Part shown: one piece after another, positions 14,613 through 27,607 of the stretch
Layout of the letters: each line of letters opens with the position of its first letter
Numbering within the stretch: the first letter of the stretch is position 1
Virus record (IMG/VR): IMGVR_UViG_3300047646_000007
Span: 1 to 42,160 of that record
Length of the DNA stretch: 42,160 bases
Origin: a virus
Strand: one strand, 5' to 3'
Made by a program: the position numbers and the translations under genes
The notes under the pieces: generated by a model
The model's database searches: none
Told to the model about the DNA's origin: nothing
The model's input: the letters and a program-made list of their open reading frames with translations, nothing else

Positions 14613-14938
14613 AAGAACAAGAATTGGTCAAAATTGTCATTTCCGAAATCTTCGCAAAGGGCGGTTGGGCAATGCGAGTAAACAGCGGAACCGTGTTCAA
14701 GGGTTCGCGGGCCATTCGCGCGGCTCCCACGGGAACCTCAGATATTATCGGCCTAATCGACGGTCGCTTTATCGCCATTGAGTGCAAAATTGGAGACAAT
14801 AAGCCGACCCCATCACAATATTCTTTTTTGGAGCTTGTATACTCCCTGGGGGGAGATTCGATATGGATGAACGATTCAGAAGAAGATTGGAGGTTATTTG
14901 AAGATTTTATTTCAATTTCTCCTCGCCCTACCCATTGA
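14609..14938 (+). CDS. VRR-NUC domain nuclease
   Basis: A 109-aa protein that is nearly a stand-alone VRR-NUC domain of the PD-(D/E)XK superfamily. Key residues are D45 in GTSDIIG, E58-x-K60 in IAIECKIG, and Q70 in TPSQ. Such proteins act as structure-specific nucleases or resolvases and are common in phage replication blocks, where they may process branched DNA before packaging. The family assignment is secure; the in vivo substrate is inferred. Confidence 0.9.
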   Translation: MKEQELVKIVISEIFAKGGWAMRVNSGTVFKGSRAIRAAPTGTSDIIGLIDGRFIAIECKIGDNKPTPSQYSFLELVYSLGGDSIWMNDSEEDWRLFEDFISISPRPTH

Positions 14939-14963
14939 CAATCGCAAACGGTCGTGGTAATAT
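14935..14963 (+). promoter_or_regulatory. Promoter before the 64-aa gene
   Basis: TTGACA (14935-14940), 17-base spacer, TAATAT (14958-14963) with TGG before it (extended -10). It overlaps the stop of the nuclease gene. It could start the transcript that includes the large non-coding region downstream. Confidence 0.75.
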
Positions 14964-14983
14964 AGTACACAGATAAGAGAAAT

Positions 14984-15178
14984 ATGGCCACTGAAGACAA
15001 CAATCAATATGATCGTGCTGAGGAAATGTTCCTTAGAAAAGAAATACGGAAAGCCTGGGACAAGTTCGATAATTATATTCAAGACGAAGTTGACGGTAAA
15101 AATGATGGTTCCAGACGGAATGAATTGGCAAAGTTTGCCAAAGATTTAGAAACAAAATTAGAACACATTGGAGGATAA
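14984..15178 (+). CDS. Small charged helical protein
   Basis: A 64-aa protein with AAGAGA upstream and its own promoter. It is helical and acidic/basic mixed. Residues NELAKFAKDLE are nearly the same as SELAKFAYDLE of the helicase, and the DNA over this stretch is 28/30 identical. No function is recognised. Confidence 0.65.
   Translation: MATEDNNQYDRAEEMFLRKEIRKAWDKFDNYIQDEVDGKNDGSRRNELAKFAKDLETKLEHIGG
15127..15139. repeat. Dispersed palindrome copy 2
   Basis: GGCAAAGTTTGCC, exact, in the 64-aa gene, 45 bases before the next start codon. Confidence 0.7.
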
Positions 15179-15183
15179 AAAAG

Positions 15184-15672
15184 ATGAGTGCAATACAAAC
15201 CACCGAAACAAACATTGGCCCGAATCTCGATCCAAAAGTTGCTTTTTCTGAAAAAGAACACGCCGCGATTGAGAGTGAGGTAGAAAATATCAATAATGCT
15301 GACGTTGGTCTAGATTATGCGGGCGAGATCGACGCGCACGTATCGCCAGAAGTGTCCAGAATCTATGATGAATGGGTACTGCTGCGTCATAAAATTGAAT
15401 CTGGAAGATTTGGATTTGTGGTTCCAGTGCAATACTCCCTGGAGCATGACGCCCTTGTAAAATATAGCGCGCATGTGCAAAAGTACAGCAAAGAGAGTGC
15501 GCGCGAAGGAACTATGACCAACACCGACGCACGAATGTTGAATCTTATCATCGGACAAGTGAAAATATTTTCCCATTTCTCAACCCAATTGGCACAAGGT
15601 GCCGTGTATGACAAGTTGAGCTCCAAGCGCCCGTACTATAACGAAAAAGAAGACAAAATCGTGGCTCCTTAG
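15184..15672 (+). CDS. Hypothetical helical protein
   Basis: A 162-aa protein with GGAGG before the ATG, five bases after the previous stop. The acidic N-terminal ~50 residues look disordered; the rest is helical (RIYDEWVLLRHKIESGRF ... RMLNLIIGQVKIFSHF). No family is recognised. It is the last protein gene before the ~850-base structured region. Confidence 0.65.
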   Translation: MSAIQTTETNIGPNLDPKVAFSEKEHAAIESEVENINNADVGLDYAGEIDAHVSPEVSRIYDEWVLLRHKIESGRFGFVVPVQYSLEHDALVKYSAHVQKYSKESAREGTMTNTDARMLNLIIGQVKIFSHFSTQLAQGAVYDKLSSKRPYYNEKEDKIVAP

Positions 15673-16520
15673 AACACACGGTCGGCTTACCCGGTAATGG
15701 AATGTGTGCCGATCTTGATCCTGGGTTTGCGGCCCATTCAACCAAACTATTTGATCTTTTCCAACTGAATAATTGGCGGCAGCACGGTAGGAACGCGCGG
15801 TCAAATCGAAACTTTGACAGAGGATAGCAGGGAGACCAGTAGGTCTATCGGTACGCTTTCTGTGAGTTTCGGGAGTAAAAGAATCAGAAGGCTGCTTCTC
15901 AATCAGGTGACTCCAAATCAAATCCTGACCGCCAAACTTTAGCAACAACTGTGGTGTCCTAGACAGGTGAACCATCGGACAATATCCCCTTACGGCGCAT
16001 TCGCATTTGCGAAGAGTATCCGAGCCACAGAAGTAATATCCTGCCCTGTTCGTGACACAAGCCTGTAAAAACCGGAAAATCCCATAGTGTATACGTGAAC
16101 TCGTATCGGATCAAGGCGGCTTTGACGGCGGGGCGGGGATGGCAATAACTGGTGGGCTATGAGGGGCGCAGAAATGCACAAGCGTAGAGTACCGGGCAAT
16201 AATCCGGATAAAACCGGGAGGGTATTCGTATAAGGACACCGACGTTCCTGTCCCACCCATAGCCCACCAGATTTTGCAATGCCAGCCGATGTGCTCTGAA
16301 ACTGAGACTACAGCGAGGAACCGTAGCAGAAGGAATGGGTGCTTAGAATAATTTCCGCCTGGCAACCGCAGGAAGGGGAGCGGTAAATAAAAACAAACCT
16401 TGACAGCCGGCAGAGATTCCGGCAACATGGGAGCGTAGCTCAATGGTAGAGCTCGCCCTGGCGCAAGGAATAAATTCCCCGGGCCGGACGAGATGATGGT
16501 TCGAGTCCACCCGACCCTTC
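15673..16520 (+). ncRNA. Large structured non-coding RNA candidate (GOLLD/ROOL-like setting)
   Basis: About 850 bases without a supportable gene, visibly richer in G+C than the neighbours and full of nested complementary helices. Examples: CTGTGG 15949-15954 with CCACAG 16025-16030 encloses TCGGA 15975-15979 with TCCGA 16019-16023, which encloses TTCGC/GCGAA (16000-16013). A 13-bp perfect helix (16149-16161 with 16258-16270) encloses GCA-GAAA-TGC (16168-16177), GAGTACC/GGTATTC (16187-16193, 16221-16227) and GGACA/TGTCC. Further hairpins are at 15800-15818, 15833-15846, 15886-15899, 16091-16106 and 16406-16423. It ends in a tRNA-like element. Size, phage context and tRNA association match the GOLLD and ROOL classes of giant phage RNAs; class membership was not tested. 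No strong promoter is seen at its start, so it may be cut from a longer transcript. Confidence 0.65.
16429..16518 (+). other. tRNA-like element at the 3' end of the large RNA
   Basis: TAGCTC-AATGGTA-GAGC (16436-16452) is a perfect tRNA D-arm with the conserved GG, and GATGG-TTCGAGT-CCACC (16495-16511) is a T-arm with one mismatch and a canonical loop. Between them there is no normal anticodon arm: CTCG/CGAG and CCC/GGG pair around a small GGAA/TTCC hairpin. The expected acceptor arms (GGGAGCG and the bases after 16511) pair only at GGG/CCC. It is not a functional tRNA by eye; it is either a relic or a tRNA mimic. The ribosome binding site of the next gene follows at once. Confidence 0.5.
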
Positions 16521-16531
16521 TGGAGGATAAA

Positions 16532-16912
16532 ATGTCAGAAGAAAAATGGTTTGATCCAAATGTTGTTTTGCCTAGTACAGACCCATCAAATTTTGGGTAC
16601 GAGGTATCTAAGGTTGGCACAGCTCGTGTTCCTGTTATCGTCAAGCTCGATTCCAATAAAGTCGGGATATTTCAATTTCGTCGGTATTTACCATCTGAGC
16701 CCGGAGGCGTATTCTGTGGATTTTCTGGATCAGTGATCTACGTTCCGGGATATGACTTTGATGAATTCGTAACACAGTTTCAAAAATTCGGAGACTCCAC
16801 ATTCAACGGACGTTCTAACAAAGAAAGCGTTGTTTTATGGCGAGAGCTATCTGATCTCGAAAAGGAGATTTTCAGTGTGCGACAACAACAAAATAGGCAA
16901 AAATTTATCTAA
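16532..16912 (+). CDS. Hypothetical protein after the structured RNA
   Basis: A 126-aa protein; ATG at 16532 has TGGAGGATAAA upstream. Predicted mixed alpha/beta (VPVIVKLDSNKVGIFQFRRY, then a helical C terminus). No family is recognised. Its leader directly abuts the T-arm of the tRNA-like element, so RNA folding may affect its translation. Confidence 0.7.
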   Translation: MSEEKWFDPNVVLPSTDPSNFGYEVSKVGTARVPVIVKLDSNKVGIFQFRRYLPSEPGGVFCGFSGSVIYVPGYDFDEFVTQFQKFGDSTFNGRSNKESVVLWRELSDLEKEIFSVRQQQNRQKFI

Positions 16913-16987
16913 CCCGTCTGTTGCGTTGGGAGTTACTGTGTGAGACTCTGACAATGCGTGGCAATGGATTATGTTTCGCAATAAAAT

Positions 16988-17032
16988 ATCACAAGGCCCG
17001 GACAGAAAAACTCTGATTCCGGGCCTTGTGAT
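16988..17032. terminator. Strong hairpin terminator
   Basis: A 14-bp perfect stem, ATCACAAGGCCCGG (16988-17001) with its complement at 17019-17032, 17-base loop, then TTCTT. It ends the replication and RNA block. Confidence 0.8.
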
Positions 17033-17061
17033 TTCTTGGAGGACTTATCTAGTATAGACCA

Positions 17062-17070
17062 TGTTATAAT
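17062..17070 (+). promoter_or_regulatory. Extended -10 promoter for the glycosyltransferase gene
   Basis: TGTTATAAT just downstream of the terminator and 19 bases before the TTG start. No clear -35. Confidence 0.5.
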
Positions 17071-17089
17071 AAAAGTCAAGGAGGATTAC

Positions 17090-17842
17090 TTGAAAAAATC
17101 AATTGAACAAGAACGAGTAGAAGAGAGTATCAAAAACCAATCTCCTTCCAACTGGATTTATCCAAAGATTTTGGTTTTTATCCCGATGGAAAGAACAATG
17201 ATCTATCCAGAGCTAATTTTGCCCCCAATAGTTAGTGTGGCCCGCCAGGGCCTCCCTTTCGTGTGGACTTCTTACGCCAGAACAGATCAAGCCAGAAACG
17301 AAGCGGCCTTCAAGTTGCTGGAATCAGATTTTACCCATATTCTCATGTTGGACAGCGACCACGTTCACCCGCGAGATATTATTCAGCGCTTGGGAAGGTG
17401 GCCGATGCTTGATATGGATATTCAGATCGTCGGCGGTCTAAACTTCATGCGCAAACCCCCTTACAAACCCCTGGTATATACAGCGGGTAAAGACGACGAC
17501 ACGTTGACCGTTCCCGCCACCTGGCCCAAAAAAGGTTTGTGGGAAGTAGAGCGCATTGGAACAGGATCAATTTTAATCAATCGCCGAGTTTTTGAAACGA
17601 TTGATTCTCCCTGGTTCAAATACGAAGATGATCCAGTAAACCATCGGTATCAAAGTGAAGATATTTACTTCTCAAAACTGGCGCGCGAATCCGGATATAA
17701 AATTTGGTGCGATCCAACGTGTGTCAGCCCCCATCTGTCTACTTTATTAGTTGACGGAGAGACTTTCAAACAGTGGCACGCGGTCAATGGTTTCAAACAA
17801 GAAAACGGACAACTTGTTGACAATTTATCCACGGGAAGTTGA
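17090..17842 (+). CDS. GT-A fold glycosyltransferase-like protein
   Basis: A 250-aa protein. The start is TTG at 17090 with AAGGAGG upstream; no nearer ATG exists. Landmarks of a GT-A (family 2-like) transferase are LVFIPM and SYARTDQARNEAA, the metal-binding DSD at 88-90 in HILMLDSDHVHP, VGGLNFMRKPPY, GTGSILINRRVFE and EDIYFSKLARESGYKIWCDP. It should move a sugar from a nucleotide sugar. The acceptor might be phage DNA, a virion protein or a host surface polymer; none is shown. It is flanked by its own promoter and terminator, which suggests an autonomous accessory gene. Confidence 0.88.
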   Translation: MKKSIEQERVEESIKNQSPSNWIYPKILVFIPMERTMIYPELILPPIVSVARQGLPFVWTSYARTDQARNEAAFKLLESDFTHILMLDSDHVHPRDIIQRLGRWPMLDMDIQIVGGLNFMRKPPYKPLVYTAGKDDDTLTVPATWPKKGLWEVERIGTGSILINRRVFETIDSPWFKYEDDPVNHRYQSEDIYFSKLARESGYKIWCDPTCVSPHLSTLLVDGETFKQWHAVNGFKQENGQLVDNLSTGS

Positions 17843-27037: not shown

Positions 27038-27607
27038 ATGTCTTCACAACCTACGCAAAACAATAATCAACAACCCGTAATGTCATACAATAGCTATACT
27101 GGCACCCCATATAATCAGCAAACTCGCGAAAGTATTCCTCCTCAATATAACGGAATGATGGATAAGCGAGTGTTGCAAGCCTTGGGTTATGCAGTGCGTC
27201 GGTTGGGAGAATCGTATCAAACTCAACAACCTTTTACTCCAGTGGCGCCCAATGATCCAAATTCCTATATAAAATATTCTCCTTTGTCTTCTAATCCAAT
27301 TGTTAACAATCAAAATACACAACTCCAAACACATACATCGGCAAACACAAATCCGGTGAAGTCCCCAAGCCAGTCAAGTGACGATATATTACAAAAAATA
27401 TCGGATTGGCTTCGCCAACTGGATCAAGGTGCGCAGTCAACCAATCAATGGTGGAACCAGAACACCCCTACTCAATATACGCAGCAATTGAATAATCCCC
27501 AAAACGTTTTGCCTTTATTCACCGGAATATTTGGTCAAGATTCTGGCACGAAATTGTATAATGGAATCGCCAATGCGTGGAGCAAAATTCAAGGAGCTCA
27601 AAAATGA
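27038..27607 (+). CDS. Q/N-rich virion-block protein
   Basis: A 189-aa protein with AAGGAG upstream. The first ~40 and the 85-125 region are Gln/Asn/Pro/Ser-rich and probably disordered; the rest has short helices (LQALGYAVRRLGES, DDILQKISDWLRQL). It opens the virion operon ahead of the terminase. Composition and place suggest a virion or head-associated protein; no family is recognised. Confidence 0.65.
   Translation: MSSQPTQNNNQQPVMSYNSYTGTPYNQQTRESIPPQYNGMMDKRVLQALGYAVRRLGESYQTQQPFTPVAPNDPNSYIKYSPLSSNPIVNNQNTQLQTHTSANTNPVKSPSQSSDDILQKISDWLRQLDQGAQSTNQWWNQNTPTQYTQQLNNPQNVLPLFTGIFGQDSGTKLYNGIANAWSKIQGAQK

Follow-up and report, generated by a model that had tools for sequence, protein, structure and literature searches.

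The largest gap between called genes in the 42-kb phage genome studied here (the window, meaning the whole stretch of 42,160 nucleotides that was analyzed) is 859 nt long, at positions 15673–16531. On balance it probably gives rise to a transcribed structured phage RNA, lying within a short operon and ending in a processing unit made up of a leader hairpin (16401–16424) and a tRNA-like element (16429–16519), all on the + strand. The hairpin has covarying copies in phages of many hosts, several of them placed just before a tRNA or tRNA-like element.

The window, an IMG/VR virus record, comprises a complete phage genome bearing a direct terminal repeat of 127 bp, and two other metagenomes contain identical fragments of this virus. 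Isolated phages include no close relative, their best terminase and capsid matches being about 30% identical; the closest relatives, retrieved with the terminase alignment as bait, are uncultured phages with terminases of ∼65% identity. Two weaker terminase relatives (L093 and L094, 42–43%) lie in Patescibacteria genome bins, a mere hint, open to binning error, that the lineage comprising them and this phage may infect candidate-phyla bacteria. None of the relatives with 65% identical terminases has the window RNA at the corresponding place, and in two near-complete ones (G010 and G012) that place holds dense genes. At its tRNA locus G010 carries a different GC-rich non-coding insert (L085:11376–11966), which contains a tRNA-like element with the T-loop UGCAAAU and has no Rfam match. 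The 5′ end of this insert is promoter-like and its 3′ end terminator-like; these ends are kept in L009, L010, and G012, the ∼320-nt middle is missing from L010, and G012 has real tRNAs at the site. A structured spacer, AAACCTCTTGACAATGTTT ... CCCCGCTTCCA, lies between tRNA genes and is conserved in two related phages (L010:4520–4600 and L088:2442–2525).

The sequence-only reading of this DNA had described a stretch of raised G+C with no credible gene, and both observations hold. All six frames are silent across 15700–16450, and the G+C content of the gap is 0.51, versus 0.41–0.44 in the genome's other gaps; its excess over the genome (+0.08) is the top value among 48 listed gaps of at least 450 nt in 1.27 Mb of phage loci. 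BLASTN with the whole RNA against INPHARED and PLSDB and a search of IMG/VR with an 18-mer from it gave no matches, and the neighboring proteins, used as bait, retrieved nothing from IMG/VR. Among these collections and the terminase relatives, 15673–16394 has no homolog; the 3′ end at 16395–16453 alone has relatives, and covariation across homologs, a check named in the sequence-only reading, is seen for the leader hairpin. Two short matches to the window RNA were set aside, a 19-nt one in G010 that is due to chance and falls within a gene, and a 31-nt one in L009 and L010 (E 0.075) that falls in a stretch of small genes close to the terminase and is probably also chance.

The only helix in the window RNA that is clearly above chance is a long imperfect in-register stem, 16132–16176 paired with 16243–16287, which encloses three inner stems. 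Its core is the 13-bp helix (16149–16161 with 16258–16270) that the sequence-only reading had picked out; none of 100 shuffles contains a helix of 12 bp or more, and the stem scores 54.6, where shuffles average 0.2 stems at a threshold of 30. The many nested perfect helices reported in the same reading do not amount to a signal, since 8 of at least 7 bp are observed and 7.8 are expected from shuffles, and the CUGUGGU/GCCACAG helix it named (15949–16030, + strand) is within the chance level. A predicted domain at 15797–15932 on the same strand, closed by GCGGUCA/UGACCGC, comes from single-sequence prediction and its helix too is at chance level; a possible closing helix spanning 16327–16522, in which 16327–16341 would pair with 16508–16522 (7 + 6 bp flanking a 2 × 2 loop), is weak alone. 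The domain 16140–16280, chosen post hoc, folds at z −5.1, and the window RNA as a whole is ordinary (z about −1). These folding-energy scores were discarded as evidence; the true ROOL RNA of pMP118, taken as a positive control, folds at z +0.24 and is without strong helices, and folding energy therefore neither supports nor refutes an RNA of this kind. The same 45-bp imperfect inverted repeat, lying as it does just downstream of the replication genes, might instead be a DNA element such as an origin, packaging, or recombination site, with the RNA reading secondary. However, a direct-repeat search of the region returned a single imperfect 17-nt pair and no iterons, on which the iteron idea was dropped, and the tRNA-like element and hairpin are strand-specific; a DNA element thus seems very unlikely.

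The RNA was also said to end at a tRNA-like element, and the Rfam tRNA model places it at 16429–16519 with 31.7 bits (gathering cut-off 29); it is the only Rfam model above cut-off, and no second tRNA-like match appears in the whole RNA region even at E = 10. The D-arm and T-loop are intact, two acceptor pairs are mismatched, the anticodon loop is 27 nt long, and there is no CCA. The element thus lacks the 7-bp acceptor, the 7-nt anticodon loop, and the readable anticodon of a functional tRNA, and ARAGORN makes no call on it. Its 3′ side (16508–16522) can pair with 16327–16341 as described above, so that the tRNA fold (acceptor and T stem) and the long-range helix would compete. IMG/VR was scanned for similar elements, tRNA-like but over-long in the middle, with a pattern of a D-arm, 41–62 nt, and a T-arm. 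The scan returned 67 loci, among them many ordinary class II tRNAs and some with odd anticodon arms. Phage tRNA-like elements with over-long, replaced anticodon arms and no CCA (L143:3688–3724, L172:11258–11554, L119, L148, L157, L117, and L173) keep the acceptor, D-, and T-arms and recur among unrelated phages. L172 matches window positions 16395–16453 at 83%, with an E-value of 7e-10 that is inflated because the scan pattern had a fixed D-arm part; the independent part of the match, the 33 nt upstream of that D-arm, has E = 0.03 within the collected sequence set. For this reason the case relies on a model built without the window copy (R1, below).

Four nucleotides 5′ of the tRNA-like element lies a hairpin of the form UGACA-stem-GARAGA-stem, which in the window reads UGACA-GCCGG-CAGAGAUU-CCGGC-A. 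The stem of this copy is intact, and its loop is an 8-nt variant that does not conform to the GARAGA hexaloop. Stems in other copies are GCCGG/CCGGC, GCTCG/CGAGC, CCCCG/CGGGG, GACCG/CGGTC, GCCCG/CGGGC, and TGCGG/CTGCA, and CCTCG/CGAGG occurs with a longer loop. When 2.09 Mb were scanned for UGACR, a stem, and GRRAGA, 22 copies appeared, against zero in five shuffled versions. Compensatory changes occur in four of the five stem pairs, a count reached by 0 of 500 shuffles (nine cells versus 1.0 in shuffles). These pair and copy counts flatter the structure, since pairing was a condition for choosing the copies and a single stem is common to many of them. The fair tests are the behavior of the hairpin model R1 on the window copy left out of its construction, and the new copy that it found without such selection. 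R1 scores 22.4 bits (E = 0.0012) at the window hairpin, its only significant match in 42 kb, and the window copy thus has the UGACA, the 5-bp stem, and the match to a window-free model that define membership. The new copy has an entirely different stem, GGCUG/CAGCC, and belongs to a cluster of ∼12 tRNAs, where a predicted tRNA-Phe follows it after ∼5 nt.

The motif is spread widely. With one copy as query, a search of isolated phages found the exact 22-mer TGACAGCCGGGAAAGACCGGCA in phages of Escherichia, Pseudomonas, Acinetobacter, Klebsiella, Stenotrophomonas, and Cronobacter, and near-exact copies in cyanophages and in Xanthomonas and Pantoea phages. These copies lie mostly outside annotated genes, and in most of these phages the hairpin is enclosed by a non-coding gap of ∼300–1500 nt. 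No Rfam match covers the hairpin in those isolated-phage loci, and a thin check of the literature found no description of it; the hairpin seems to have been undescribed so far. It is also present in L143, and L172 carries a second copy. The distance to a downstream tRNA or tRNA-like element is at most ∼11 nt in five loci (L163, L172, L186, L196, and L201) and 32–51 nt in two others (L198 and L143); roughly half of all copies lack a tRNA within 500 nt. In a gut phage fragment (L201:1796–2177) the hairpin and a tRNA-Pro are closely followed by a tmRNA gene. The hairpin is not confined to the neighborhood of tRNAs: in a Stenotrophomonas phage, the gap 3′ of the repressor (L194:947–1525) contains three to four copies, whose stems differ and covary, but no tRNA. 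Theta ribozymes, which are HDV-like, are likewise small phage RNA elements adjoining phage tRNAs, and they are proposed to act in tRNA processing by cutting at the tRNA 3′ end (PMC10879173). The leader hairpin, by contrast, is on the 5′ side of tRNAs and so, judged by position, does not look like a theta ribozyme; it is a single hairpin in which no HDV-like double pseudoknot was recognized.

A decayed phage tRNA cluster, in which degenerate tRNAs, structured leaders, and spacers are kept without a function of their own, would account for the degenerate state of the tRNA-like element, and it finds parallels in the tRNA arrays of the related phages L010, G012, and L172, some members of which are odd or degenerate, and in the structured G010 insert, which stands where relatives have tRNAs. 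Decay of this sort nevertheless leaves the 45-nt in-register stem and the genome's highest G+C excess unexplained, and the solitary tRNA-like match and the intact stem of the leader hairpin also speak against it, so that we consider it unlikely.

We know of no function for GOLLD or ROOL, the large phage RNAs found near tRNAs, in the time since their discovery. The sequence-only reading had proposed a long structured non-coding RNA with a tRNA-like end belonging to one of these classes or to a new class of similar type; the first part of this is supported, membership of GOLLD or ROOL is not, and a new class is a possibility. Neither the GOLLD model (RF02032, gathering 150 bits) nor the ROOL model (RF03087, gathering 99.1 bits) matches the window RNA, whether at its gathering threshold or with the limit relaxed to E = 10, yet both find genuine members, the ROOL model giving 130 bits for the Ligilactobacillus pMP118 ROOL and 384 bits for a phage ROOL, and the GOLLD model 203–205 bits for two phage GOLLDs. 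Judged by these models, the window RNA is neither GOLLD nor ROOL. Rfam up to E = 10 likewise gives no group I or II intron, tmRNA, RNase P, riboswitch, or T-box match, on which the group I intron and tmRNA identities were dropped.

The resemblance to these RNAs is one of size and setting. Like GOLLD, which is phage-borne, often over 800 nt long, and situated beside or around tRNAs, the window RNA has a pseudo-tRNA (16429–16519) at its end, a trait that is non-specific; one mycobacterial GOLLD copy encloses a pseudo-tRNA (PMC6582537). In contrast to GOLLD, the window RNA is not part of a tRNA island; protein genes flank it, in an operon on the replication side. With ROOL it shares being a large phage or prophage RNA near tRNAs with unremarkable folding energy, and it differs in length (ROOL is ∼574 nt, the window RNA ∼850). 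A trait that would mark membership of GOLLD or ROOL is assembly into an RNA-only multimeric cage, the kind of property assessed by cryo-EM or mass photometry (PMC12286853). Phage ICP1 is reported to make a highly expressed ∼800-nt non-coding RNA (PMC7567579), which resembles the window RNA in its size, in occupying an orf-less gap (HQ641347 80097–81107; L113:14098–15108), and in failing to match either model, GOLLD or ROOL; it differs in that the leader hairpin is not found in the ICP1 gap and ICP1 has no tRNA. A distant GOLLD or ROOL that escapes the Rfam models would fit the size, phage origin, raised G+C, and pseudo-tRNA of the window RNA, but the silence of models that detect other members so strongly, together with the absence of the leader hairpin from all four yardstick GOLLD and ROOL loci (L112, L181, L182, and L183), makes this highly improbable.

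The gap is set among small genes on the + strand. A promoter-like site (TTGACA-17-TAATAT with TG, a consensus match only) lies upstream at 14935–14963; a 162-aa gene of no known family (15184–15672) ends with a stop codon that abuts the RNA region; a 126-aa gene (16532–16912) has its ribosome-binding site, GGAGG, immediately 3′ of the tRNA-like element; and a 14-bp hairpin followed by TTCTT (16988–17037; folding z −6.1 for 16900–17099) is probably the operon terminator. Between the promoter-like and terminator-like sites lie two small genes, then the RNA, then a third small gene, an arrangement which suggests that the stretch from ∼14935 to 17037 is one operon. The closeness of the ribosome-binding site, within a few bases of the tRNA-like element, and the inclusion of all parts in one apparent operon would also suit a long cis-acting leader for the 126-aa gene, acting for example by sensing of the tRNA-like fold or by attenuation. 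Against such a leader, 850 nt is much longer than known leaders, the close downstream neighbor of the hairpin in other phages, where it has one, is a tRNA or tRNA-like element, and there is no riboswitch or T-box match; we regard it as decidedly improbable.

The pairing of the hairpin with a tRNA or tRNA-like element leads to the maturation reading favored here. Transcription would start near 14935, run as a single unit through the two small genes, the RNA, and the third gene, and stop near 17037. At the 3′ end of the RNA, host tRNA-processing enzymes would recognize the two-part unit of UGACA/GARAGA-type hairpin, 4-nt spacer, and tRNA-like fold, with RNase P acting where the tRNA-like element begins; processing would part the structured RNA from the mRNA that follows it and so fix the 3′ end of the structured RNA. 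The upstream ∼700 nt resembles GOLLD- and ROOL-type RNAs in size and setting while lying outside both families, and our leading guess is that it may be a stable scaffold RNA of that kind. Several observations count against this explanation: no homolog of 15673–16394 was found, two near-complete relatives have dense genes at the corresponding place, the folding energy is ordinary, the hairpin loop is an 8-nt variant, the acceptor has mismatches, the pairing with 16327–16341 competes, and many hairpins have no tRNA nearby.

A wider proposal, which is tentative and which we hold to be possible rather than probable, is that the widespread element of UGACA, a 5-bp stem, and GARAGA serves phages of very different kinds as a 5′ signal for the maturation or expression of their tRNAs and tRNA-like RNAs. 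In this phage the element would then stand at the end of a large structured RNA of a new class, with tRNA-like processing generating the 3′ end of that RNA. Since the hairpin is common to phages whose hosts are enterobacteria, pseudomonads, cyanobacteria, and uncultured organisms, and stands directly ahead of tRNAs as well as of the tRNA-like tail of a large structured RNA, it offers a testable link between large phage RNAs and tRNA processing. Known laboratory phages are suited to such tests, for example the Escherichia coli phage mEp390, which has the hairpin at 27450–27472.
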